From contig JACPUU010000018.1 of the NCBI GenBank assembly GCA_016192075.1, forward strand, positions 186,001-250,000: DNA of 64,000 nt. Direction: 5' to 3'. Under the pieces are notes generated by a model, which made no database searches, was not told where the DNA came from, and saw only the letters and a program-made list of their open reading frames with translations. The position numbers and the translations under genes are program-made. The stretch comes from Bacteroidota bacterium. GTDB taxonomy: Bacteria; Bacteroidota; Bacteroidia; Flavobacteriales_D; Crocinitomicaceae. Positions within the stretch are counted from its first letter, which is position 1, and every line of letters begins with the position of its first letter. This document shows positions 6,230-64,000 of this stretch, piece by piece.

Positions 6230-7939
6230 ATGAAAGCAGAAATTCTTGCAAAAATTATCGCGCTGAACAATCAGCCCTCTGTGTTGGATTCAGTGAATGA
6301 GTTCAATGACCTCGTAAACGAATTTTACCACCTTCAAAACGAAGAAGAGCGCCAGTTCGAAATTGAAAAAATGGACCGCATTGCCGCAGGTGAAAAACCT
6401 GAAAACATTGAGCGTCCCGTTTATCCACACCTGGAAGAGTTTAAAGCGGTTACCACTGTTTTTAAAGAACGCAAAAAGGTAGAACTGACCCAGATTAAAG
6501 ACCAGGAAAATGCAAACTACAAACAAAAGAAAGTCTACATTGCTGCCCTGACAGACCTTATTCAGAATGAAGAGAATATTGGAAAGGCCCTTACCCGATT
6601 TAAAGAAATTCAGGATGGCTGGAAAGAAGTAGGCGCCGTGCCGCGTGAAAAAAGACAGGCGCTGCAGAATGAATTTTCACAGCTGATTGATACGTTCAGA
6701 TACAACATTGGTATTTTTAAAGAAATTAAAGATCACGACCTGAACCGCAATCTGACTCTTAAAAAAGAGCTGATTGAAAAACTAAAAGGTTTGTTGTCAC
6801 TTGACAAAATCAAAGAAATTGAAACCCAGCTCCACAGCCTGCAGGATGAGTGGAACTCCCTGGGCGGCACACACCAGGAAGAGTGGGAAAAAATTAAAGA
6901 TGAATACTGGGCTACTGTTAATGCCGTTTATGAAAAAATACGCAAATTCTACGATGAGCGTAAAGCAGAACAGGGCAAAAACCTGGAACTGAAAAAACAA
7001 CTCATTGAAAAAGCAAAAGAAATTAATACCCGTGAGCTGACCGATCATAAACACTGGCAAAAAGCATCTGATCAGCTTTTGGAATTGCAGGAAGATTGGA
7101 AAAAAGCAGGCTACGGACCGCGTGATGAAAATGAACAAATCTGGCAGGAATTCCGCGGTGTATGCAACGAGTTTTTTGCAAAGAAAAAACTGTTTTACGG
7201 TGAACGCAATGATCAGTTTTCAGATGTAAAAGCCAAAAAAGAGGCCCTGATCAAAGAAGCCGAAGAAATTAAAAATTCAACCGACTGGAAAGCCGGAACA
7301 CAAAAAATTCTGAATCTTCAAAAACGCTGGAAAGACATAGGTTCTGCCGGACCTAAATTTGAGAACCAGCTTTGGAAAAAATTCCGTGAACCCATTGATT
7401 TTTTCTTCAATGCCAAAGACTCACACTTCAAAGAACAGGACAATGCCAACCTTGAAAACCTGGCCAGGAAAAAAGCCGTTATTGAAAAAATAAAGGCCTA
7501 CGAGGCCGCCGGCGATACCCAAAAAATCATTGCTGATCTGAAAGCTTTTTCTGAAGAATTTGCCGGTATTGGAAACGTTCCGTTTGACAGCAAAGATGCT
7601 ATTTACAAAGACTATAAAACAGCACTTGACGACAAATATGCCAGCCTGAAAATTGACAAGGAAGAGAAAGAAAAAGTACTGTTCCAGGCCAAAATTGATT
7701 CCATCATGACCAGTACAAACAAAGACCGGCTGATTGACCAGGAAACCAGCAGCATCCGCCAGAAAATTGATGCATTGAACAAAGAGGTGCTGAAGTATGA
7801 AAACAACCTGTCTTTCTTCTCTAACGCTGATGAAAAAAATCCGCTGTTCAAAAGCGTTAATGACAATATCAGACGCAATAAAGAAGAAATTGAGAGCCTG
7901 AAACTGCGTTTGAAACTTATTCGTCAGGCTGCTAAATGA
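6230..7939 (+). CDS. DUF349 repeat protein
   Basis: A 569-residue, highly charged, almost wholly helical protein. At least five DUF349 repeats of about 70 residues are visible by their W..G anchors: DGWKEVGAVPREKRQALQNE, DEWNSLGGTHQEEWEKIKDE, EDWKKAGYGPRDENEQIWQE, KRWKDIGSAGPKFENQLWKK and a weaker EEFAGIGNVPFDSKDAIYKD. The C-terminal 90 residues form a coiled coil. No signal peptide or membrane segment is present, so it is cytoplasmic. Its molecular function is not established. It begins a run of overlapping genes: its stop overlaps the start of the membrane protein gene by 4 bp (ATGA), and that gene in turn overlaps the GT-C-like gene. This suggests translational coupling with envelope functions. 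Confidence 0.88.
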   Translation: MKAEILAKIIALNNQPSVLDSVNEFNDLVNEFYHLQNEEERQFEIEKMDRIAAGEKPENIERPVYPHLEEFKAVTTVFKERKKVELTQIKDQENANYKQKKVYIAALTDLIQNEENIGKALTRFKEIQDGWKEVGAVPREKRQALQNEFSQLIDTFRYNIGIFKEIKDHDLNRNLTLKKELIEKLKGLLSLDKIKEIETQLHSLQDEWNSLGGTHQEEWEKIKDEYWATVNAVYEKIRKFYDERKAEQGKNLELKKQLIEKAKEINTRELTDHKHWQKASDQLLELQEDWKKAGYGPRDENEQIWQEFRGVCNEFFAKKKLFYGERNDQFSDVKAKKEALIKEAEEIKNSTDWKAGTQKILNLQKRWKDIGSAGPKFENQLWKKFREPIDFFFNAKDSHFKEQDNANLENLARKKAVIEKIKAYEAAGDTQKIIADLKAFSEEFAGIGNVPFDSKDAIYKDYKTALDDKYASLKIDKEEKEKVLFQAKIDSIMTSTNKDRLIDQETSSIRQKIDALNKEVLKYENNLSFFSNADEKNPLFKSVNDNIRRNKEEIESLKLRLKLIRQAAK

Positions 7940-8625
7940 ACCGCGTAGTTAACGTTTTCACCCTTTTGATTCTTGGAGTTTTTTGCTTCATGATTATGGT
8001 TGTGGTGTATGATCTTTCGATATCCAATTTACACCTGAAGGGCATGCCCTACAAGCGTGAAATTTTTACCGGCCTCGCGCTGCTTGTTTTTCTGCTTGGT
8101 CTTATTCGCATGCAGCGACGCTGGCAGGGAATGCGTGATATGAAGAAATACCGCAGTTTTAAATTCACTGTACCGGTTGCCAGAAAACACCGCATGCTCG
8201 GTTTTATTATCACCCTTATTGAAGCTGTTTTTTTTACCGCCGTAATTTGGTTTTGCACGCTGTTCATTCCGCTGGAACCAACCTATGTATATCCCATGAT
8301 ACTGGTACTGGGTGTCCTGATCCTGGAATCATTGATTTTTGCTGCCCGTCAGTACAAGGGTGGAAACGCTTTTGTGGTTGGTTTTGATGATACCGTAATG
8401 GGTTATTTTGACCGTGAAATTCACCTGTTCTATTACACCGGTTTGCAGCGGGCACAATTGTATCAAAAAGACCTGATTAGTCTTGAATACCGTGAAGAAC
8501 TGAATATGGGCTTTGAAACAACCGTCATTGAAGAGTCAGATCGTAAAGCTTTCCGTGATGCTTTTGTTGAAACGCTTGAGTCAAAAAATATCTACGTAGA
8601 CGATTCGTTACGCAACTGGGAATGA
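7936..8625 (+). CDS. Four-helix membrane protein of unknown function
   Basis: A 229-residue protein with four hydrophobic helices (about 5-27, 42-58, 83-105 and 109-128), the second pair being strongest (LGFIITLIEAVFFTAVIWFC). A soluble C-terminal part of about 95 residues follows, rich in charged residues (QKDLISLEYREELNMGFETT, then SDRKAFRDAFVETLESKN). It overlaps the DUF349 gene by 4 bp upstream and the GT-C-like gene by 4 bp downstream, both as ATGA. The C-terminal part is probably cytoplasmic and could interact with the DUF349 protein, which is inference from gene order only. The family was not recognised. Confidence 0.75.
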   Translation: MNRVVNVFTLLILGVFCFMIMVVVYDLSISNLHLKGMPYKREIFTGLALLVFLLGLIRMQRRWQGMRDMKKYRSFKFTVPVARKHRMLGFIITLIEAVFFTAVIWFCTLFIPLEPTYVYPMILVLGVLILESLIFAARQYKGGNAFVVGFDDTVMGYFDREIHLFYYTGLQRAQLYQKDLISLEYREELNMGFETTVIEESDRKAFRDAFVETLESKNIYVDDSLRNWE

Positions 8626-10406
8626 TCCAAAAACTGGCAGAACATAGAATCGCCTTTCTGCTGCTGGTTACTCTTTTACTGGTTCAACTTTTTTCTGTTG
8701 ACCTCAACAGCCCTTACCGCAAGCCCATTAATGGTGACGCCCAGGCTTATTACGCTTATTTACCGGCCATTTTCATTTACCAGGACCTCGATTATTCATT
8801 CGTGCCGGAAATGCAGCAGAAATATTATACCACTGCAAGCGCCAAATCTTTTTTAAAAGAAACAACCGATGGTGAAAAAGTGAATAAAACTTTTCCCGGT
8901 GTTACCGTATTGTACCTCCCGTTTTTTCTGGCTGCACATGCAACGTCACTTCTCTTTGGCCTGCCGGCTGACGGATATGCGTTTACCTACCAGCTTTTCT
9001 ACCTCATGGGTTTCTGGTTTTACTTTTTGCTGGGCATGATTTTTTTTCGCAAGGTGCTGTTACAGCTGAATTTCACACCAAAAACAACCAACCTGACCCT
9101 GCTTGTGCTGGTATTGGCAACCAACCTCTTCTTTTACACCGTTTATGATCAGTCAGTGACACACATCTACAGTTTTTTTCTGATCAATTGGGCTTTGTGG
9201 TTGCTGTTGAAACTGAAAGCGCATTTTCAATTGTCCAGGTTAATACTGCTCGCAAGCATTCTGGCGCTTATTGGCATAACCCGCCCAACCAATATTCTGG
9301 TACTGGGTGTGTTTTTCTTTTTTGTGCCTGAAATGGCCTTTTATAAATCGCTTTTAAATCAGTTTTTTCGTATTAAAAACATTTATAAAACTCTTGTTCC
9401 GGTTCTGCTCCTGCTTTCTATACCATTCATTTTATGGAAATTACAAACCGGAAAATGGATTGTTTATTCGTATGGCAATGAGGGTTTTGACTTTTTGCAT
9501 CCGCAGCTGTTTAATTTTCTGTTTTCATACACCAAAGGCTGGCTGGTTTATACCCCGGTTATGGCATTTGTTCTGCCGGTTGGTTTTATACTTTTATTCC
9601 ACCAAAACAAAAAGCAGTTTTTCATTGGTCTGATCTTTCTGTTGCTAGCTGTATACATTTTCAGCAGCTGGTGGTGCTGGTATTATGGTGCAGGCCTGAG
9701 CCAGCGGGTAATGATGGACTTTTACATTCTCCCGGGTTTTTTGCTTGCCCTTATTTTTCAAAAAACAGGCACAATAAAAGAATCATCACAGAACCAAAAT
9801 TCAAAAAAGCAATTCTCCTGGAAACGGCCAGCCCTGCTAATACTCATGCTGCTGTTTATTTGCGTAAACACCATTCAGGCCTGGCAAATATCCAACGGCA
9901 TTTTACCTTTTGGATCACCTACGCGCGAACAATACTGGGACAATTTTTTGGTGCTGAAGAAAAGAGCACAGGTTTACCCCCAGCAGCACTGGGTTTTTGT
10001 TAACCGGGGCGTTGTATCCCTCAATTCAGCTGAAGGGCAGATTTTGAAAGGAAACCCGGTTCAGCTTGAAAACAACTGGTGTTTGCAGGTAAATGAGTCA
10101 GCTGAATATTCGGCTGTTGCACAAATTCCGCCGCAACATTTCAAAAAGGGGTGTAAACTCATTGTTTCATTTGAAAGCAGGGCAAACACAACTATTGAAC
10201 AAACCCGCGTTGTTTTTCAGCTGGGGCCAACACTTCAAAAAGTCTTTTTACTGAAAGATTACATTTCAGCCGATTGGGAAAAAATGCAATACCTCCTTGA
10301 AATAGATGATGAACTAACGGCACCCGTTGACATTTACCTGTGGAATGCCGGCAGCGGTGAACATGCTGAGTTGCGCAACCTCAGCTGGGAACTGTATTTT
10401 GACTAA
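8622..10406 (+). CDS. Polytopic membrane protein, GT-C glycosyltransferase-like
   Basis: A 594-residue protein with about ten to twelve transmembrane helices in the first 440 residues and a soluble C-terminal domain of about 150 residues. The segment after the first helix (NGDAQAYYAYLPAIFIYQDL) has an acidic pair in the first periplasmic loop, where lipid-linked GT-C glycosyltransferases (families 39/83/87) carry their catalytic Asp. The general topology fits, but no complete family signature was seen. The C-terminal domain (VFQLGPTLQKVFLLKDYISA, then PVDIYLWNAGSGEHAELRNL) looks like a carbohydrate-binding beta-sandwich. The neighbouring GT2 and GT9 genes support a role in surface glycan or LPS decoration. 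An alternative is an unrelated transporter-like membrane protein. Confidence 0.6.
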   Translation: MIQKLAEHRIAFLLLVTLLLVQLFSVDLNSPYRKPINGDAQAYYAYLPAIFIYQDLDYSFVPEMQQKYYTTASAKSFLKETTDGEKVNKTFPGVTVLYLPFFLAAHATSLLFGLPADGYAFTYQLFYLMGFWFYFLLGMIFFRKVLLQLNFTPKTTNLTLLVLVLATNLFFYTVYDQSVTHIYSFFLINWALWLLLKLKAHFQLSRLILLASILALIGITRPTNILVLGVFFFFVPEMAFYKSLLNQFFRIKNIYKTLVPVLLLLSIPFILWKLQTGKWIVYSYGNEGFDFLHPQLFNFLFSYTKGWLVYTPVMAFVLPVGFILLFHQNKKQFFIGLIFLLLAVYIFSSWWCWYYGAGLSQRVMMDFYILPGFLLALIFQKTGTIKESSQNQNSKKQFSWKRPALLILMLLFICVNTIQAWQISNGILPFGSPTREQYWDNFLVLKKRAQVYPQQHWVFVNRGVVSLNSAEGQILKGNPVQLENNWCLQVNESAEYSAVAQIPPQHFKKGCKLIVSFESRANTTIEQTRVVFQLGPTLQKVFLLKDYISADWEKMQYLLEIDDELTAPVDIYLWNAGSGEHAELRNLSWELYFD

Positions 10407-10420
10407 ACCCGTTTGACTTT

Positions 10421-10663
10421 ATGTGGATTATTACAGTCATCCTTTTACTGATACTTTTTTTCCCGGCAATTATTCTGTTCGATTATCATAAAAAGCACAA
10501 CATTCATAAATCTATCTGGTTCCTTGTATTTTTTTGTGTTTTTATGTTACTGATCCGCCTCTGCATTGCGTTTTTGGGCCTGACGCTGGTGAATTACCTG
10601 CTGCTGATTCCGGTAAGTATTTTTGGTGTTTTGTTTGCGAAAAACCGGCGAAAAAAAGAGTGA
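10421..10663 (+). CDS. Small membrane protein (80 aa)
   Basis: An 80-residue protein that is almost entirely hydrophobic, with two or three helices (ITVILLLILFFPAIILF, then SIWFLVFFCVFMLLIRLCIA, then LVNYLLLIPVSIFGVLF) and a basic tail KNRRKKE that favours a cytoplasmic C-terminus. It starts 15 bp after the GT-C-like gene and so is likely co-transcribed with it. No family was recognised. It could be an accessory subunit of the membrane enzyme upstream. Confidence 0.6.
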   Translation: MWIITVILLLILFFPAIILFDYHKKHNIHKSIWFLVFFCVFMLLIRLCIAFLGLTLVNYLLLIPVSIFGVLFAKNRRKKE

Positions 10664-52158: not shown

Positions 52159-55059
52159 ATGAAATTGTTCAGCACAACCCTTTTTATCGTTACCTTTTCA
52201 GTAGTAACCTTCGCTCAAACATGGCAGGATGTAGGGGGCGGAACCAACAGCAGCAGTCATGGCATGTGCCTTTGGAATGGCATGTTGGTTAACGCCGGCA
52301 GTTTTAATAATCCCTGTCAGAAAGTAGCAGGATGGGACGGAACCACCTGGAGCTGTATGGGTGGCGGTGTTGGTTTGGTTGGGCGTGATGCAATTGAGTG
52401 GAACGGAAACCTGGTTGTTGTAGGCGATTTTTGGAATAATTTTCAACCCTGCACAGATTGTAACGGTATTGGTGTTTGGGATGGAACAACCTGGTCTCCG
52501 CTTGGAACAGGTTTTAACAATGATGTTTTGTGCCTGGCAATCTGGAATGGAGACCTGGTAGCCGGCGGTGATTTTACAGAGGCTGACGGTCAGCCTTGTT
52601 CCCGCGTGGCAAGGTGGGACGGAACAACCTGGCAACCAATTGGCGGACCCACAGATTTTGATAACGACATACGCTGCATGGTTGAATACGATGGCGAATT
52701 GTGGGTGGGTGGTGATTTTAGCAATGTTGCCGGTTGCACTGCCTGTGACGGACTTGTGCGGTGGAACGGAACCAACTGGGTTGGTGGTGACAGCGGTGTA
52801 GACATTCAGGGAGGGGTAGATAGCACCGTGCGTGTATTATACATCAATCCCAATGACGGAAATTTATACATGGGGGGCCATTTTACTGACCTTTCCATTG
52901 ATGGGGTTACAACTGCTTTCAACGGTGTTGCCATGTATGACGGGTCTGCCTGGACTCCTCTTGGAAGCGGCGTAAACAGTTATGTGCGGGCAATTCATGA
53001 ATACAACGGTAACCTGATTGTTGGTGGTGATTTTACCTCAGCAAGCGGAACAGCCGCAAATAAAATAGCCAAATGGAATCCTGGCTCGTCCAGCTGGTCT
53101 GCCATGGGCAGCGGAATGAATGATTACGTAAAATCAGCCGCTGTATACAGCGGTGTTTTTTATGCCGGTGGTGCTTTTACAACAGCTGACGGGTTACCCC
53201 GGGAATATATTGCCAGCTGGTATGAAACACCTTCGGTTCCGCCGGTTGCAACCATTAATTCAAGCGCTACAGCTGTTTGTTCGGGCAGCTGCATTTCTTT
53301 TACCGATTTAAGCACCAATAGCCCAACGTCCTGGCTTTGGAGTTTTCCGGGTTCGTCAACACCCTCATCAACGCTGCAAAATCCGGGAAGCATTTGTTAC
53401 CCCGGTGCAGGCAATTATACGGTTACGCTGGAAGCCTGTAACAGTGCCGGCTGCAATACAACCACACTCAACATTACCGTAAATGCAGCCCCAACCGTTT
53501 CTTTTACAAATCAAACCATTTGCAGTGGTGAATCAGTAACACTTACCGCCGTGCCATCTTCAACCGGTGGAAATTATTCCTGGAGTCCCGGCGGAGAAAC
53601 CACGGAATTAATCAATGTATCTCCGGCTTCAACTACGTCGTACACGGTTACATATTCACTCAACGGTTGTTCCAGCGCAGCATTCAACGGTTCAGTTACC
53701 GTTAATCCAACACCGGTTTTAACGCTAAATCCTGACGAAACAATCTGCAGTGGAAACAGCGTACTACTTACGGCAACCCCTTCTCCCGCAGGAGGGAATT
53801 TCAACTGGGCCCCGGGCGGTGAAACCACCTCTTCTGTTACGGTGTCTCCTGCTGTTACGACGGATTATACGGTTTCCTATTCATTGAACGGTTGTGATGC
53901 TTTAGATGCCAGCGTACTTATTACTGTAAATACAACTCCTGCCGTTAGTGTCAACAGCCCAACCATTTGTGAAGGAACAAGTGCATTGCTAACAGCCACG
54001 CCATCTGTTGCCGGCGGAAACTTCAGCTGGAGTCCGGGTGGTGAAACAACACAAAGCATCAGTGTTTCACCGCTGTCATCAACAACTTATTCTGTGATTT
54101 ATACCCTTAACGGCTGCCAAAGCAGTACCGCTGTATCAACGGTCACGGTTGCTGCACAACCAACCGTAAGTGTTGATGATGCGTCTATTTGCAGCGGATC
54201 AGCGGTTGATTTAACTGCAAATCCATCCTCAGCCGGGGGTAGCTACTTGTGGAGTCCCGGCGGTGAAACAACACAAACCATTACCGTTTCACCGGGGTCC
54301 AGTACTTCATACACGGTAACATATACCATTGCCGGCTGCACACCCGTGCAGGATAATGCGAGCATCAATGTCACCAGTACTCCCTCCGTTTCTGTTAACA
54401 GCGCGACCATTTGTGCCGGTGAAAGTGCTTTGTTAACAGCTATTCCTTCAGCCTCAGGAGGTGATTTTATCTGGTCTCCGGGTGGTGAAACCACAGCTGC
54501 AATAAATGTAACACCAGCCTCATCAGTTACTTATTCTGTAACCTATACCCTTGATGGCTGCACCAGTTCTGCAGCCAGCGCAGCGGTTACTGTGCTGCCG
54601 CTTCCAAACACGCTGGTTGATCAAAGCGGTTTTGTATTAAGCGCACAACAAGCCGGCGCTGCTTATCAGTGGCTTGACTGTGAAGCATTCACCCCTGTTT
54701 CAGGTGAAACCAATCAAAGTTTTTATCCGGCGTATAACGGTTCGTTTGCTGTAGAAATTAATCTGAATGGCTGCATTGATACATCTGCGTGCACCCCTAT
54801 CACCGGACTTGGTTCTGTTGAGGTTGTTAGTACACCTGTTTTTTTCTATCCCAACCCGGCACATGAAATAATTGTGGTGTATACCAATGCTTCGCTGATT
54901 GGATCATTTGTACAACTGCATGACCAGGCGGGCAGGCTTGTTTTTGAAACCCGTTTATATTCCACTCAAAATACTATTCCGGTTGCGCAATTACAACCGG
55001 GTATTTACTTTATTTCTTTTGCTGAATCAACTGAAATTTTGCGGATGGTTAAACAATAG
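52159..55059 (+). CDS. Large T9SS-secreted repeat protein, adhesin-like
   Basis: A 966-residue protein with a signal peptide (LFSTTLFIVTFSVVTFAQ). Residues 20-360 form seven or so propeller-like repeats around the words WDGTTWxxxG and NGNLxVGGDF (for example ARWDGTTWQPIGGPTDFDND). A PKD-like domain (about 365-440: SGSCISFTDLSTNSPTSWLW SFPG) follows. Then come five Ig-like repeats of about 73 residues, each with ICSG, SWSPGGETT and YTVTYSLNGC-type words (nucleotides about 53490-54600). A module with YQWLDCEAFTPVSGETNQSF and CIDTSACTPIT recurs in the protein at 39166. The last 80 residues are a type A sorting domain (FFYPNPAHEIIVVYTN, ending GIYFISFAESTEILRMVKQ). It is secreted by the type IX system to the cell surface or medium; binding to surfaces or glycans is inferred. 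Confidence 0.87.
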   Translation: MKLFSTTLFIVTFSVVTFAQTWQDVGGGTNSSSHGMCLWNGMLVNAGSFNNPCQKVAGWDGTTWSCMGGGVGLVGRDAIEWNGNLVVVGDFWNNFQPCTDCNGIGVWDGTTWSPLGTGFNNDVLCLAIWNGDLVAGGDFTEADGQPCSRVARWDGTTWQPIGGPTDFDNDIRCMVEYDGELWVGGDFSNVAGCTACDGLVRWNGTNWVGGDSGVDIQGGVDSTVRVLYINPNDGNLYMGGHFTDLSIDGVTTAFNGVAMYDGSAWTPLGSGVNSYVRAIHEYNGNLIVGGDFTSASGTAANKIAKWNPGSSSWSAMGSGMNDYVKSAAVYSGVFYAGGAFTTADGLPREYIASWYETPSVPPVATINSSATAVCSGSCISFTDLSTNSPTSWLWSFPGSSTPSSTLQNPGSICYPGAGNYTVTLEACNSAGCNTTTLNITVNAAPTVSFTNQTICSGESVTLTAVPSSTGGNYSWSPGGETTELINVSPASTTSYTVTYSLNGCSSAAFNGSVTVNPTPVLTLNPDETICSGNSVLLTATPSPAGGNFNWAPGGETTSSVTVSPAVTTDYTVSYSLNGCDALDASVLITVNTTPAVSVNSPTICEGTSALLTATPSVAGGNFSWSPGGETTQSISVSPLSSTTYSVIYTLNGCQSSTAVSTVTVAAQPTVSVDDASICSGSAVDLTANPSSAGGSYLWSPGGETTQTITVSPGSSTSYTVTYTIAGCTPVQDNASINVTSTPSVSVNSATICAGESALLTAIPSASGGDFIWSPGGETTAAINVTPASSVTYSVTYTLDGCTSSAASAAVTVLPLPNTLVDQSGFVLSAQQAGAAYQWLDCEAFTPVSGETNQSFYPAYNGSFAVEINLNGCIDTSACTPITGLGSVEVVSTPVFFYPNPAHEIIVVYTNASLIGSFVQLHDQAGRLVFETRLYSTQNTIPVAQLQPGIYFISFAESTEILRMVKQ

Positions 55060-57438: not shown

Positions 57439-58191
57439 TTAAAGCAAATTCAATTTTTCCAGCAACTCATCTTTATAAGAACCGCCGATTGGAATGACTT
57501 TTTTGTCGTTTTCCAGGTAAAGGTTCGGATACTCAATAGATGCTATTTTAGACACACGTACAATGAATGAACGGTGAACGCGAATAAACGCTTCAGCAGA
57601 TAATTTGCTGATAATATCTTTCATGGTAGAGTGAATGGTGTAACGCGCATCAAGGGTATTGATAACAACGTAATCTTTCAACGCCTCTACGTAGTAAATA
57701 TCTTCGGTTTTGATTTTTACGAGCCTGCTTTTTGATTTTACAAAAATAAACTCTTTGGAATCTTTGTTTTCAATCAGTGAATAAAACAGGTCACGCTCTT
57801 TCAGTACTTCTTTCTCTTTAGAGTACTTGTACAGCGCCATTTCAATCGATGTATGTAAATCTACCTCTTTGAACGGTTTAATGATGTATCCGTAAGGTTC
57901 AGTAACTTTTGCTTTTGCCAGGGTTGACTCGTCAGCATAGGCAGTCAGGTAAATAACCGGGATATGCAGTTCGGCTTTTACTTTTTCAGCTGTTTCAATT
58001 CCGTTCATTTCTCCCTTAAGCATGATATCCATGAGAATGATATCGGGATTTTTTTCGGCGGCCAGTTCAAATGCCTTTTCACCGGTAGACGCGGCACCCA
58101 CCACATTATACCCTAATTTCTTAAGGCTGTGCTGAATATCCTTTGAAACAATACTTTCGTCTTCGACTACAAGAACATTGGTTTTTGGCAT
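57439..58191 (-). CDS. Response regulator with LytTR DNA-binding domain
   Basis: A 250-residue two-component regulator. The receiver domain (1-120) has the acidic pocket Glu10/Asp11, phospho-acceptor Asp55 (ILMDIMLKGEMNGIETAEKV), Thr83 (IPVIYLTAYADEST) and Lys105 (GYIIKPFKEVDL). After a short linker, the LytTR domain (about 150-250) shows FIFVKSKSRLVKIKTEDIYY, VEALKDYVVINT, then FIRVHRSFIVRVSKIASIEY and the end KVIPIGGSYKDELLEKL. Phosphorylation by the upstream kinase would control its binding to direct-repeat promoters. It lies 2 bp after the kinase gene and is the last of the three-gene operon. Confidence 0.94.
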   Translation of the reverse strand: MPKTNVLVVEDESIVSKDIQHSLKKLGYNVVGAASTGEKAFELAAEKNPDIILMDIMLKGEMNGIETAEKVKAELHIPVIYLTAYADESTLAKAKVTEPYGYIIKPFKEVDLHTSIEMALYKYSKEKEVLKERDLFYSLIENKDSKEFIFVKSKSRLVKIKTEDIYYVEALKDYVVINTLDARYTIHSTMKDIISKLSAEAFIRVHRSFIVRVSKIASIEYPNLYLENDKKVIPIGGSYKDELLEKLNLL

Positions 58192-58193
58192 AG

Positions 58194-61100
58194 TTATACT
58201 TCCTGCTTTTCAAAGGTAATTAAAAATTTTGTTCCGCCTAATCTTTTCAGGTTTAGTTCGCCGTCCAGCTGATCAACCAGTGTATACACCAAACTTAGCC
58301 CCAACGACTCGGAATTTTCAATTTGAAAGCCTTCAGGCAGGCCTACTCCAAAATCCTGCACACCCAGGGCTATTTTTCCGTTATTTTCAGAAACCTCTAT
58401 CAGAATTTGCCCTTTTTCATCTTCCGGATATGCATATTTCAACGCATTTGAAACCAGTTCATTCAAAATAAGCCCACACGGTATCGCCTGATCAAGTGCC
58501 AGTTTCACCGGCCCAACGTTGAATTTTAGCTCAACCTTATCATGATACAACTGGTACGAGTGTACCAGGTTTTGAACCAGGTTGGTAATGTAATCTGCAA
58601 AATTAATCGACGAAAAATCTTTCGTTTGGTAAAGCGACTCGTGAATGTATGACATGGACCGTATGCGGTTCTGGCTTTCATTAATAATTTCGAGCGTTTT
58701 AGGATCCTCCACATACGACGACTGAAGATTCAGAATACTGTTAATAACCTGCAGGTTGTTTTTAACCCGGTGGTGAACCTCTTTCAGCAGAATTTCTTTT
58801 TCCTTGACAGACTCTACCAGCATGGATTCGTACTCAATGGTTTCAGTAACATTGCGGGCCAGAACGATCACCTCATTTTCGTTCATTTTAGAAAACCGGT
58901 TTTCGTAATACAAAGGCCGGCCGCCATCATTCTGATTCAGTTCAAACGTAAACGTTTCAAACTCGTTAGTGACCAGAACGCGGTTGACAATTTCCAAAAA
59001 CTTAGCCACAATTACAGGGTCTTTTACTACATCAGAAACCTTGTTTCCGATAAAATGCGGGGTTTTCAAATACGGTAATACCGGGTCAAGGCCATTTTGC
59101 TGGCTCATTCTGAAATCAGTAAACACACCATTGCGGTTTACCTTGGTAAGTATATCAGGCAGTGCCAGTAATATGGCGCGGTTATTGGCCTCGCTGATTT
59201 TAATTTTACGCTGCGCTTCTATTTTTTCAGTGATTTCATGTGAAATAAACGATATTTCAGACACGTTGCGGTCACCAATTTTCACCGGGTTCAAGAATGA
59301 TTCTACCCATACTTCGCCTGTTTTTGCTTCAAAATGGCTGATAAATTCAAGTGTTTCTCCGTTCAGCACCCGCGCAAAACGCTCTTCAATTTTTTCACGT
59401 GCGCGTGCTTCTGTTTTAAATAAATCCAGAAAATTATCTCCGATTTTTACCTCAACTCCCAGGCTTTTTTGAATCATGCGGCGGAAATTTTCATTGAAGG
59501 ATGAAATGCAATACTTTTCATCCAGCGAAAGAATAAACAAGTTGTAAGAGCTTTCAAAAAGGGCATTCAGCCAGAATGTTTTTTCAAGCAGCTGCGATTG
59601 CGTAATTTTGTGGCGGGCAATCTCATCCTGTAATTTTTTGTTGGTGTCTTCAGCAATTTCTGCACGCAGCTTCTGGCGGTTATATTCGGTTTGCAGGGTA
59701 ACATCCTGCAGCATCAACAGGTCTGATTTTTTATTGTTGTAAATGGTTTTTACAGCGTTGAGGCTGTATTGACGCATGTCTTTGTCATTGGCCAGTTCTA
59801 TTTCTGTGAACGCATTCAGTCCGCCCTCCTTTTCTTCAAGCAAATCATTGATTAAGTATTTTAATTTTTCAGGAAAAACAGCGTCAAGATGTTTTGATTT
59901 GGTGTTCAGGCGATCATTGTAAATGTGTTCTCCCTGCGGATTGGTGTAAACCAGTTCATTGTCTGTGAAAATGAGAATACCGGCCGGTGAATTATCAACA
60001 ATGTTTTTAAAGCTTCGCTGACTTTCAAGCAGAATTTCTTCGTTGTGTTTTCGTTCAGAAATGTCTTTAATAACAAGCTGAATAATTTTATCACGACCCA
60101 ACTCAATGGCTACAACAGATATTTCTGCTACAAATTCAGATTTGTCTGACCGTTTGAAACGCCATTCTGTTTCTATTTTTTTACTGTTGTTTCTGTTTTC
60201 TGTAAATTGTTCCTTCAGCCCGTCCGGATTAACCGTAAACGCTTCGAGCGCCATGCCGGTCATTTTTGTTTTTTCGTATCCCAAAAGTGCTGCTGCGCCT
60301 GGGTTTAAGTCAATAATGGCGGGTGATGATTCCTTCAGGGATATGAGCAAAATTCCTTCTTTGGATTCTTCAAACAACAAGCGGTATTTTTCTTCGCTCA
60401 TCTTGAGCGCATTGGCTGTTTCTTCAATCTCGGTAATATCAATGAGTGTCCCTTCTATGATATTCAGATTACCGTCTTCATCAGGCTGAATGGAAACGTT
60501 GTTGTTGAGTACAATGCGTTTGCCGTCTTTGCGCCTGAGAATAGAAATGGAGTTGTTTATGAACCCTTCACTCCGTAGCTTTTCCAGGTAATTTTTACGG
60601 TCTTCTTTGTAATAATAAAGATCTTTGATGTTTTGCTGTTTTAGCTCCCCTACTGAATCATATCCCAGAATGCGCGCAAAAGCCTGGTTTGCATCAATGA
60701 TAGTGCCGTCTACATGTGTTTTATAAACACCTGCCAGGTTTCGTTCAAAAATCTGCCGGTATCTTTTTTCAGACTGCTCCAGTGAATTTAAAGCCTCAAT
60801 CTGTTCGGTAATATCAGTGACAATGCCAAAGAGTTGAACGACGCCTTCGGCGTCGATTTTTTTTGCAAAAATCTTCTCTTCTACCCAACGTACTTCACCA
60901 TTCCTGACAATGCGGAATTTGATCTGGTTCTGATGGCCTGTTTGCACCACTTCATCAAAAAGCTTTGCCGTTCTGACACGATCTTCGGGATAAAAAATAT
61001 CACTTAACCGGCCTGATTTTACCAGGGTAATGTATTCATCTGCTTCAATACCATACACCTCAAAAACTTTGTTTGACACGTAATTCACCTGGTGGTCACC

Positions 61101-62105
61101 ACCCCGGGGCCGGTATGAAATGTTAAAAACAAATGAATTAATGTTTTCAAGCACCCTTGAAATGTTTTCTTTGCTCTCCAGAAGCCTGGTTTCAAAGTCG
61201 CGCTGCTCCTGAACTGAACGAATGGTGATAATCAACACATCTGATCCAAAATATACAGACTTTCGAACCGTAAACTCTTTTTGGGTAAAATGATCACTGC
61301 CTAAAACAGCGCACTGGGCTTCGAATTTTTTTCGCATTCCCTTCAGGGCTCCTTCCACCGCAATTCTGAATTGTTTTTTATCAGACTCGTCACGTGAGCA
61401 AAAAACCTCATGGAACTTTTTACCTATCAGTTCATCCCTCCCTACTTCTGAAATTTTATCAAGGGCTGTTTTATTTAAATCAATGATGGTTAAATCTGTA
61501 CTTACTACATAAATCTGCTCTGCCAGGTCACTAAACAGGTTTTTATAGCTTTCTTTCGCATTTTGATTTTCCAGTATCAGATTTTCACGCCAGTAGCTGA
61601 AAATCACTACTACAATGGCATAAAAAAACACATAAACACCGTATTTTACATCATCTGGATCATTTAGCAGTGCAGCTGTTGTAAATGACACCACAAAAAC
61701 AGCAAAATAGGTAATGGTGATGGGCGGTTTAACCAAAAGCAAGCCTGAAAAAAACACCGTCATCATCAGGCTTATCACACTTCTGTCTTCCGGTTGATTT
61801 ACAAACCAGATAAAATTCAGCAGGGTGAGACAAAACAAAAAAGCACTGTGCAGGTACACAAAGTTTTTTTTTATCCAGGCGTTTTTGTAAAAAATCAAAA
61901 CCGCTGATCCAAATGCAATACCGACAAACGCCTGGAGGTATTGATTAAATTCCATGGTGTAAAAATCTGTCAGTGATACAAGAACATTGATGGTAATAAG
62001 GGGTAAAAGTATTTGTGACAACCTTTTATAAAACACCATTAGTGTATCACCGAAAGAATTGTCAGCAGAAATTTTTAAAGAAAATATGTTCGCTCGTTTT
62101 TTCAA
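58194..62105 (-). CDS. Giant seven-PAS sensor histidine kinase (HisKA_2 type)
   Basis: A 1303-residue membrane sensor kinase. Five or six helices occupy about residues 28-170 (RLSQILLPLITINVLVSLTD, through FYAIVVVIFSYWRENLIL). Then about seven PAS domains follow, near 190, 325, 440, 565, 690, 845 and 965, recognisable from SYKNLFSDLAEQIYVVSTDL, RYRQIFERNLAGVYKTHVDG, KYRLLFEESKEGILLISL, SFKNIVDNSPAGILIFTDNE and VLLALPDILTKVNRNGVFTD-like starts. Each ends with an IVTDITE- or VIKDISE-type tail. The dimerisation/phospho-acceptor region (about 1095-1170) is LLKEVHHRVKNNLQVINSIL, the HisKA_2 signature. The ATPase (about 1180-1303) has LILNELVSNALKYAYPEDEK and GVQDFGVGLPEGF. It signals to the LytTR regulator 2 bp downstream. 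No ligand can be named. It follows the MORN-repeat gene by 2 bp. Confidence 0.92.
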   Translation of the reverse strand: MKKRANIFSLKISADNSFGDTLMVFYKRLSQILLPLITINVLVSLTDFYTMEFNQYLQAFVGIAFGSAVLIFYKNAWIKKNFVYLHSAFLFCLTLLNFIWFVNQPEDRSVISLMMTVFFSGLLLVKPPITITYFAVFVVSFTTAALLNDPDDVKYGVYVFFYAIVVVIFSYWRENLILENQNAKESYKNLFSDLAEQIYVVSTDLTIIDLNKTALDKISEVGRDELIGKKFHEVFCSRDESDKKQFRIAVEGALKGMRKKFEAQCAVLGSDHFTQKEFTVRKSVYFGSDVLIITIRSVQEQRDFETRLLESKENISRVLENINSFVFNISYRPRGGDHQVNYVSNKVFEVYGIEADEYITLVKSGRLSDIFYPEDRVRTAKLFDEVVQTGHQNQIKFRIVRNGEVRWVEEKIFAKKIDAEGVVQLFGIVTDITEQIEALNSLEQSEKRYRQIFERNLAGVYKTHVDGTIIDANQAFARILGYDSVGELKQQNIKDLYYYKEDRKNYLEKLRSEGFINNSISILRRKDGKRIVLNNNVSIQPDEDGNLNIIEGTLIDITEIEETANALKMSEEKYRLLFEESKEGILLISLKESSPAIIDLNPGAAALLGYEKTKMTGMALEAFTVNPDGLKEQFTENRNNSKKIETEWRFKRSDKSEFVAEISVVAIELGRDKIIQLVIKDISERKHNEEILLESQRSFKNIVDNSPAGILIFTDNELVYTNPQGEHIYNDRLNTKSKHLDAVFPEKLKYLINDLLEEKEGGLNAFTEIELANDKDMRQYSLNAVKTIYNNKKSDLLMLQDVTLQTEYNRQKLRAEIAEDTNKKLQDEIARHKITQSQLLEKTFWLNALFESSYNLFILSLDEKYCISSFNENFRRMIQKSLGVEVKIGDNFLDLFKTEARAREKIEERFARVLNGETLEFISHFEAKTGEVWVESFLNPVKIGDRNVSEISFISHEITEKIEAQRKIKISEANNRAILLALPDILTKVNRNGVFTDFRMSQQNGLDPVLPYLKTPHFIGNKVSDVVKDPVIVAKFLEIVNRVLVTNEFETFTFELNQNDGGRPLYYENRFSKMNENEVIVLARNVTETIEYESMLVESVKEKEILLKEVHHRVKNNLQVINSILNLQSSYVEDPKTLEIINESQNRIRSMSYIHESLYQTKDFSSINFADYITNLVQNLVHSYQLYHDKVELKFNVGPVKLALDQAIPCGLILNELVSNALKYAYPEDEKGQILIEVSENNGKIALGVQDFGVGLPEGFQIENSESLGLSLVYTLVDQLDGELNLKRLGGTKFLITFEKQEV

Positions 62106-62107
62106 TG

Positions 62108-63673
62108 CTATTCTTCTTCTATTTCTGCTACTTTGAATCCGTTAATCTTATAAATTTCGCCGTTTTTATACTGAATTTCTTCTGTTTCTTCACCCATTTC
62201 ATTGTAGGTTCTCCAAACCCCGTGCTGAACGCCGCCGACATATTTTCCGGTCATTTTCCGTATTCCGTTTTGATGATACCAGGTGTGTTTTCCTTTTGGT
62301 GTTCCCTCTTCAAAAGCGCCAACAAATGCTATTTTTCCATTAAGGTAATAATGGTACCACACCCCGTCAGGCTGACCTACTGTAAAGGAGCCAACCTCTT
62401 TGTGATCACCAACCTGGTAAAACCAGGCCCCTTCCTGCAACCCGTCATAATATTCACCGCTCGCAATTTCTGTTCCGGTTGAATCGTACTCGGTTACTGT
62501 GCCCTCCAGTTTACCATACGCATTGTAGGTTTCATTGCGCTTAAGCTGGCCGTTGGGGTAATACCAGTTCCAGGTTCCGTAAGGTATGTTGTTTCTGAAC
62601 TTTCCCTCCTGCTCTTTTTTTCCATTGGCATAATAGTACGTCCATAAATCACTCTGCACACCAGCAACATACATACCTGCAGATAATAATTTGCCCGACG
62701 GATAATAATTTTTCCAGGCTCCCTGGTACGTACCATCAAACAAAATCATTCCCTCTGAAACAAGTGTGTCGTTTTTATAGATATACCCATTTTTCAGGTT
62801 TCCGGCTTCATCGTATTCCCTGAAAATGCCTGATTTGAGACTTTCATTCATGCCACCTACCAGCTTTATTTTACCACCCGGGTAGTATTCTTTGTACAAC
62901 GCTATTAACACAATGTCTGATTTTGTGTTGGTGGTGTCGCTGGTCATATCCTGAATATCGATCAGTTTTCCTTTCGGGCTGTATGTTTTGGACAAGCCAA
63001 ATTTTTGCCCGTCGCGGTAATTCTGTTCTGTTTTAATGGTACCATCCGGATAATATTCACGCCAGGTTCCGGTTTTCTTCCCATTCTCATCAAGCCGGTT
63101 AAACTCTGACCGGTCTTTCAGGTATCCGTTATCGTATAATTCTTCTGTTATCACGGTGCCTTCAGGTGAATACTCCAATGACAGGCCCACTTCTTTTCCA
63201 CCTTGAAACAACAGGTTTTTTTTCAAACTTCCATCCGGATAAAACCACTGTTTTTCTCCTTCAATAACATCGTTCACATAAAAAAACTCTTCACTCAGCC
63301 GGCCCAGTGAATCATAACGCTGCGCGCAGCCGTTTTTTTTATCTGCTTTATATTCGTATTTCCAGTTAATTCTACCCTGGCTGTCGTAGAAAATCCAGGT
63401 GCTGTCAGATAATCCGCTGGTTTTATAACCGATAGCTTTCAGAACACCATCTTCATAATAGGTTTTCCACAAACCAACCGGTACCCCTTTTTTGAACTCG
63501 CCCTCGCTGGCCACCCCGCCGTTGTCATAATAAAATGTATTATAACCGTTCGGGTTAATTTCCTGGCCAAAGGTCGCGCTAAAATGCAACACCGCAGTAA
63601 TTAAAATACAAACACTCTTTTTTTTTAAAGTATGAAAGAAGAAGAGAGGCTTATGTTTATTAGCGCTGTTCAT
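62108..63673 (-). CDS. Exported MORN-repeat (YwqK/MORN_2) protein
   Basis: A 521-residue protein with an N-terminal signal (about 18-36, KSVCILITAVLHFSATFGQE). Almost all of the mature part consists of about 17 MORN_2 repeats of 22-25 residues built on the word G.W..YY.dG.l: for example KKGVPVGLWKTYYEDGVLKA, GKKTGTWREYYPDGTIKTEQ, GAWKNYYPSGKLLSAGMYVA and NIPYGTWNWYYPNGQLKRNE. It ends acidic (KVAEIEEE). Despite the database label antitoxin for YwqK-like proteins, no toxin is nearby. In bacteria such repeats form elongated beta-solenoid surfaces at membranes or cell walls. It opens the operon with the seven-PAS kinase and LytTR regulator, 2 bp before the kinase, so a sensory or co-sensor role is plausible. 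Confidence 0.88.
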   Translation of the reverse strand: MNSANKHKPLFFFHTLKKKSVCILITAVLHFSATFGQEINPNGYNTFYYDNGGVASEGEFKKGVPVGLWKTYYEDGVLKAIGYKTSGLSDSTWIFYDSQGRINWKYEYKADKKNGCAQRYDSLGRLSEEFFYVNDVIEGEKQWFYPDGSLKKNLLFQGGKEVGLSLEYSPEGTVITEELYDNGYLKDRSEFNRLDENGKKTGTWREYYPDGTIKTEQNYRDGQKFGLSKTYSPKGKLIDIQDMTSDTTNTKSDIVLIALYKEYYPGGKIKLVGGMNESLKSGIFREYDEAGNLKNGYIYKNDTLVSEGMILFDGTYQGAWKNYYPSGKLLSAGMYVAGVQSDLWTYYYANGKKEQEGKFRNNIPYGTWNWYYPNGQLKRNETYNAYGKLEGTVTEYDSTGTEIASGEYYDGLQEGAWFYQVGDHKEVGSFTVGQPDGVWYHYYLNGKIAFVGAFEEGTPKGKHTWYHQNGIRKMTGKYVGGVQHGVWRTYNEMGEETEEIQYKNGEIYKINGFKVAEIEEE

Positions 63674-64000
63674 TTGTTGAAAAGAATGTCCGGAAAATTT
63701 GGATTTTAAAGTTAAGGCTTTTTTTTCAGACTGAATGAACAGCCACTCAACATCGGTTTTATTTGATTATAAAGGGTTGAGGTGGGTTATGAACATTGTT
63801 GGTTTTGGATATAGATGTTAATTCTATTTTCTCAATTCACTCTATTTTTCTGTCAATAAATGATGTTTAATTTTTAGGCTTCTGAACAGCGGTTATTCAA
63901 ATACTTGTATACCTCGAATTTAAAATGGCAATTCAAAGCAATTTGAAGAAAAGTATTACAAATTCTTTCACGGCATTTGAACAATTGAATTAACAAATTG
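63674..64000. other. 327-bp A/T-rich right end, no gene seen
   Basis: Upstream region of the MORN-kinase-LytTR operon. No TAnnTTTG box stands close to the ATG at 63673, and no open frame of coding quality or strong hairpin was seen. Any promoter here departs from the consensus used by the other genes. Confidence 0.4.

Follow-up and report, generated by a model that had tools for sequence, protein, structure and literature searches.

The locus considered here raises the question of why the gene for an exported repeat protein should stand directly in front of a sensor kinase gene and a response regulator gene, and what this arrangement has to do with its place on the chromosome. The window, a stretch of 64,000 nucleotides from a Bacteroidota bacterium, contains a MORN_2 beta-solenoid gene (MORN), a sensor histidine kinase gene (HK), and a gene for a REC-LytTR response regulator (RR), as listed in Table 1. 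The original prediction regarded the MORN protein as the extracytoplasmic partner of the kinase. We favor a different reading, to which we assign a probability of about 0.6, in which a conserved two-component operon is the first transcription unit at the chromosome origin and the MORN protein is its secreted product.

Table 1. Coordinates of the features in the window and at the comparison locus L057.
Feature	Position	Strand	Remarks
REC-LytTR response regulator	57439..58191	(-)	250 aa
Sensor histidine kinase	58194..62105	(-)	1303 aa, listed start codon TTG
MORN_2 beta-solenoid protein	62108..63673	(-)	521 aa, start codon 63673-63671
Putative origin unwinding element	63651..63683	(-)	DnaA-box-like TTTTCAACA + AAATGAACA, GCGC, A-centred trios
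Putative oriC, window part (rpiB-MORN intergenic)	63674..64000	.	continues to 64141 equivalent, rpiB start
DnaA-box-like site TTATGAACA	63787..63795	(+)
L057, MORN	8980-10503
L057, HisKA kinase	7658-8980
L057, OmpR-type regulator	6949-7650

The three genes are arranged in tandem on the reverse strand with a gap of 2 bp at both the MORN/kinase and the kinase/regulator junction; the coordinates, strand, lengths, and both gaps were confirmed as first described. Family searches identify rpiB, beyond the start side of MORN, and rnr as the genes that flank the unit. Six hydrophobic segments fall within residues 29-169 of the kinase, and a PAS model matched each of the seven PAS-sized fragments into which it was cut (five above the Pfam cut-off, two below), which agrees with the initial description of about six helices and seven PAS domains. 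Pfam also places HisKA_2 (PF07568) at residues 1109-1184, together with HATPase_c, and the H-box at 1111, N-box at 1215, and G-box at 1251 are those expected of a kinase core. In the regulator, REC (6-116) and LytTR (156-247) both lie above the Pfam cut-off (LytTR with 73.5 bits against 22.6) and the acceptor aspartate D55 is intact. D55 and K105 are invariant in 36 aligned orthologues, and the regulator is even across loci, with 34 of the 35 other aligned rows 59-89% identical to that of the window and L083 at 39%. The front end of the kinase varies freely, and the kinases adjoining the regulator have lengths of 453 to 2038 aa. In domain make-up, gene order, and active-site residues the pair is like an ordinary PAS-HisKA_2 kinase/REC-LytTR pair; what sets it apart is that a MORN gene precedes it and that it is maintained next to a putative origin.

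The MORN protein matches PF07661 with 113.4 bits, and eight stretches pass individually in Pfam. Its structure was predicted with AlphaFold2 from the window protein and 25 orthologues, giving a mean pLDDT of 89.7 with a pTM of only 0.52, and the model consists of one N-terminal helix followed by a nearly all-beta chain. The count of 17 repeats made at first is fair, because the model has 39 strands of at least three residues and about 19 hairpins. The proposed signal peptide corresponds to a hydrophobic segment at residues 20-36, which fits such a peptide as judged from hydrophobicity. In a Foldseek search, Morn1 crystal structures align with about 210 residues of the model (TM by target 0.55-0.60), and there is a profile match to SET7/9. 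Rhs/teneurin shells, which gave the best Foldseek E-values, have TM below 0.2 and were rejected as repeat-sheet matches in favor of Morn1. The only NCBIfam model matched at E <= 0.01 is the Leptospira LIC20035 adhesin (NF033566), and with 104.1 bits against a cut-off of 250 the protein does not belong to that family. YwqK-type and Fusobacterium MORN2 proteins are also MORN_2 proteins; the sole NCBIfam match being the adhesin model, the statement that a YwqK antitoxin label does not explain the context is supported, likewise for the conserved MORN-HK-RR unit described below, with the neighboring genes viewed as ORFs and through a few family searches. Eukaryotic Morn1 and SET7/9, the YwqK type, and the LIC20035 adhesin model have the repeat family in common with the window protein, which is set apart from other MORN_2/MORN proteins by its signal-like N-terminus, its 521 aa, and orthologues tied to one locus. 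The parts of the unit are of known kinds.

The conservation of the unit was followed in three locus sets that partly overlap, with genes counted in six frames. Of 98 relatives, 47 have a MORN orthologue over most of the length, at 30-57% identity, and these belong to 11 of the 13 families in the table. Two of the 47 orthologues are split in two pieces, one in G043 and one in G061 across the numbering start, since the numbering of the closed G061 chromosome (C1) begins inside the MORN gene; G081, with a partial MORN match, was left out of the fetched loci, which include all 47 orthologue loci. These comprise 34 MORN-HK-RR, 2 MORN-RR, and 11 MORN-alone arrangements, and among the 40 with 5.5 kb downstream 31 are MORN-HK-RR, 2 are MORN-RR, and 7 have MORN alone. 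Counting L083, whose divergent regulator retains LytTR but escapes the strict threshold, the LytTR regulator follows MORN without a kinase in three cases. The named loci, drawn by the regulator (80 kept of at least 502 matches), include records of Crocinitomix catalasitica, Cryomorpha ignava, Brumimicrobium, and Fluviicola. All 80 divide into 48 MORN-HK-RR, 21 HK-RR, 10 RR alone, and 1 MORN-RR; for the 62 with 5.5 kb upstream the numbers are 44, 12, 5, and 1, and rpiB is near in 57 of the 62. In 85 of the 198 genomes covered by a class-wide search, the regulator was present at E <= 1e-60; 20 of these loci were opened and gave 15 MORN-HK-RR, 4 HK-RR, and 1 RR alone, with rpiB near in 10. The survey that had been suggested thus returns the triplet in 31/40, 44/62, and 15/20 loci of relatives, named records, and the class, respectively. 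Its conservation in distant genomes excludes chance, and the claim that the three genes are coupled is borne out, as they form a conserved unit. The arrangement in which rpiB diverges, across an intergenic region, from MORN, HK, and REC-LytTR is ancient within this bacterial order, and the triplet occurs elsewhere in the class as well. Records titled Actinomyces, Chryseobacterium, Chitinophaga, or Kuenenia also contain the locus (L143, L155, L167, L170, L172, L177); these look like mislabelled metagenome bins.

In the reading first proposed, the MORN protein would be the extracytoplasmic partner that reads the envelope and signals to a membrane kinase. The tight tandem order and the signal-like MORN N-terminus speak for such a partnership, and the kinases of the window and of 15 of 77 other MORN loci have at least three membrane segments. 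One hundred distinct kinases adjoining the regulator were compared, 77 with MORN and 23 without. Of the kinases beside MORN, 61 lack an N-terminal membrane segment, 1 has a single one, and 15 have at least three, whereas the 23 without MORN comprise 18 with at least three and 5 with none (Fisher p = 4e-7, phylogeny ignored). On seven short contigs (L143, L160, L167, L172, L189, L200, L203) MORN could lie past the end, and excluding these leaves at least three segments in 14 of 16 kinases without MORN. This association of MORN with segment-less kinases argues against an extracytoplasmic partner. By eye, the six segments of the window kinase leave short loops only. Furthermore, at four loci that have lost the kinase (L079, L080, L083, L174) MORN still adjoins the regulator; at L083 (8100-8855) the regulator has an altered REC acidic pocket and an intact LytTR domain, with no kinase beside MORN. 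The occurrence of HK-RR without MORN, MORN-RR without HK, MORN alone, and RR alone weakens the proposed partnership further, and we regard it as very unlikely. Because MORN-side kinases mostly lack membrane segments, the MORN protein is better viewed as a product than as a sensor, and the idea of a MORN sensor becomes a comparative result against that idea.

The chromosomal position of the locus was unexpected. The rpiB-MORN intergenic region looks like a replication origin, as it carries sequence marks of oriC, and it is referred to here as a putative origin. Strand skew, mnmG, and dnaA were followed in six genomes (the window contig of G000, and G004, G061, G077, G219, and G249, the last two from another family of the class), with ten stretches around the locus per closed genome. 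In all six, the skew turns at the locus by GC3 or raw counts, with off-sign stretches. The GC3 skew has the expected sign to the left and right in 5/5 and 5/5 stretches of both G004 and G061, in 4/5 and 5/5 of G077, and in 9/9 and 2/2 of the window contig, where the two stretches on the right share 4 kb; it is less clean in G219 (2/5, 4/5) and G249 (4/5, 4/5). The raw GC skew has the expected sign in 5/5 and 5/5 stretches of G249, 5/5 and 4/5 of G219, and all ten of G004, and is less clean in G061 (4/5, 3/5), G077 (5/5, 3/5), and the window contig (8/9, 2/2). An alignment of the rpiB-MORN region of nine family members contains conserved blocks, chiefly TGTTCATAATTATTAACATCTT (with variants in some) and a repeated TGTTNATAA. 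DnaA-box-like words were counted with the variant TTATNAACA, the variant box itself being an assumption. On the window contig their density is 4.55 per kb across the 660 bp surrounding the MORN start and 0.10 per kb elsewhere, and in L042 and L043 it is 10.6 per kb compared with 0.15-0.31. Of 19 same-family loci, 11 have densities of at least 4.5 per kb around the MORN start (in one of them measured over just 113 bp), with at most 0.6 outside, and many loci of other families have none or one such word. An 18-bp box pair occurs exactly once in G000 and once in G004, both times at the rpiB-MORN locus, and has no exact site in the other four genomes searched.

A further mark is a putative unwinding element that overlaps the MORN start codon, as it overlaps the first MORN codons in several relatives too. 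The family consensus over the MORN start reads TTAT[TC]AACA-WATNAACA-GCCC-TAATAATAA or a close variant. The element is not kept for the start codon, since L047 and L050 keep the element DNA without an ATG, and it is also matched at loci without MORN (for example, L184, L199, L201, and L202). A regular expression for the element matched 33 of 93 regions, compared with 7 of 93 on the reverse strand and a mean of 1.3 (maximum 4) in 50 shuffles. A profile was then built from 28 distinct matches of the expression, with its threshold at the 99% level of 930 dinucleotide shuffles. It exceeds this threshold in 74 of 93 rpiB-side regions, including 41 of the 60 outside the regular-expression set, against 7 of 93 on the reverse strand; the other 19 of the 93 fall below. 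When near-duplicates were removed, the figures were 55/72, 31/48 outside the training set, and 5/72 on the reverse strand. On both strands of the window contig, which is outside the training set, the top match has 18.7 bits at 63657-63684 and the next has 4.8 bits in 95.6 kb. Whole stretches gave 25.9 bits in G004 (in training) and 18.6 bits in G061 (not in training), and the profile was weak in G077 (3.6 bits, at the right place), G219 (5.2 bits), and G249 (none). A 19-bp element pattern with one mismatch has five matches in 59 genomes, all at the element site, and its reversed controls have none, although it does not fit the variant of the window. A 23-bp pattern designed on the window element is unique in its own genome at up to three mismatches, where the match is by design and the uniqueness is the result.

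The element can be compared with the basal unwinding system of oriC, for which the published passages give a rule of one box with at most two mismatches, a second box with at most four, a spacer of at most 16, and at least three NAN trios (PMC8287927). Measured against TTATCCACA, the two boxes of the window have 2 and 4 mismatches, and one frame after them contains four NAN trios, the frame and strand being the analyst's choice. Box and trios were taken on one strand, which the passages of PMC8287927 and PMC6669920 do not state. By the profile, 55 of 72 regions, and the window with 18.7 bits, would belong to this box-spacer-trio type. Tandem boxes, a GC stretch of about 4 bp, and A-centred trios are features that the described system has in these passages (PMC8287927, PMC6669920) and that are also found here. 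In contrast to it, as there described, the boxes read TTATNAACA more than TTATNCACA, the element overlaps the start of a secreted-protein gene, and in 6/6 genomes dnaA is either distant or located on a separate contig (the latter in G000).

The true origin might instead be at mnmG, which lies 6-28 kb from the locus in 6/6 genomes, so that the rpiB-MORN region would merely be its neighbor. Ori-Finder placed oriC at mnmG in two Flavobacteriaceae, Mariniflexile (PMC11278836, in passages where text and figure legend disagree on the marker gene) and Algorimicrobium (PMC12843772, in the passages available). This published mnmG-side position also fits the coarse position of an rpiB-MORN origin (PMC11278836, PMC12843772, the same passages). 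Within the 95.6-kb window contig, however, the cumulative GC3 minimum has a flat bottom at the kinase gene, 1.6 kb from the intergenic region and about 28 kb from mnmG. In the mnmG-containing stretches of G000, G004, and G061 the top element match is at MORN; G004 was in the profile training set, and G000 and G061 were outside it. An origin at mnmG is decidedly improbable.

The origin position itself may account for part of the linkage through slow gene-order change, which counts against the operon-at-origin reading; loci with MORN alone, with the regulator alone, and with the kinase but no MORN all exist. Taken to its limit, the position would be the whole explanation, with functionally unrelated genes staying together since order near the origin changes slowly. 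The flanking genes rpiB and rnr are of unrelated function, and members of the unit are lost singly. The regulator is the only member next to rpiB in Brumimicrobium (L162, L168), Fluviicola (L184, L199), and L202, and likewise in L181 with slightly less flank; MORN has neither kinase nor regulator beside it in L078, L082, L084, L085, L086, and L087 (L078 and L087 with little flank). Yet order and strand persist, and MORN-HK junctions are mostly short (-11 to 131 bp), while the outer neighbors differ. In other lineages (L239, L243, L246, L248, L250) nadA directly precedes MORN or separates it from rpiB, and MORN, HK, and RR nevertheless remain in line; nadA was confirmed by a family search in L248, and the other four are alike by eye. 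L246 has an extra 887-aa gene between MORN and HK. A pure effect of position is, on this evidence, unlikely.

In the operon-at-origin reading, the PAS kinase would integrate mainly cytoplasmic or membrane signals and would phosphorylate D55 of the regulator, whose LytTR domain would then bind promoters, probably including that of the operon itself inside the origin region. The MORN protein would be an exported beta-solenoid made together with the pair, a secreted product such as an envelope or surface scaffold and not a sensor. Genes near an origin have a higher dosage; the position should thus give the operon a high dosage, and its transcription would run through or next to the unwinding element. 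Such an arrangement would give a precise and testable origin position for a large bacterial group whose origin and dnaA are far apart, and a sensor-regulator operon maintained beside a putative origin across families.

A bolder proposal is that the LytTR regulator binds within the origin, that a swappable PAS kinase tunes transcription at the unwinding element and replication initiation, and that the envelope MORN protein is a coupled output, making this a widespread two-component replication input in Bacteroidia. If the regulator did act on the origin, signals and chromosome replication would be linked in a new way, although we consider the proposal distinctly improbable. LytTR proteins bind direct repeats, and their DNA-binding fold differs from those of CtrA, HP1021, and MtrA. 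A dyad count over 72 de-duplicated regions returned unwinding-element and AT-rich words only, with no LytTR-like pair. The element remains above threshold in L057, L076, L082, L084, and L086 (flank of at least 5.5 kb), which have no adjoining regulator of this type beside MORN, and the origin therefore does not need the regulator there. Both this and the missing LytTR-like pair also count against the operon-at-origin reading. Behind MORN at L057, the place of the HisKA_2/LytTR pair is taken by a HisKA kinase and a regulator of the OmpR type, for which the RprY model is the closest (292 bits against a cut-off of 370), and L076 is alike by eye. RprX/RprY is a pair in Bacteroidota; the RprY-like regulator replaces the HisKA_2/LytTR pair in the family of L057 and not in the window. 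CtrA, HP1021, and MtrA are described as response regulators that bind origins (passages of PMC4285127). They share with the window regulator a link between a response regulator and oriC (PMC4285127, same passages), which in the window is one of gene position.

Among the titles and abstract beginnings of openly licensed PMC literature, no paper on a MORN/LytTR operon or an rpiB-linked origin was found, and a DoriC prediction at the rpiB-MORN site may already exist. LytTR/kinase mutations of F. johnsoniae, as given in passages of PMC10197871, could not be tied to the window regulator. With 150 of 171 candidates scored, the window genome (G000) has at least 16 MORN_2 matches, which fall on eleven genes, and the ten further genes are on C1, C2, C7, C8, C10, C12, and C20. 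Judged by ORF starts and lengths, no kinase/LytTR pair was seen beside eight of these ten (L018-L024), and at L024 a different kinase/regulator pair lies some 4.5 kb away from MORN. Elsewhere in the window, positions 52159-55059 encode a protein of 966 aa that combines PKD and Ig-like units and carries a sorting tail for type IX secretion.
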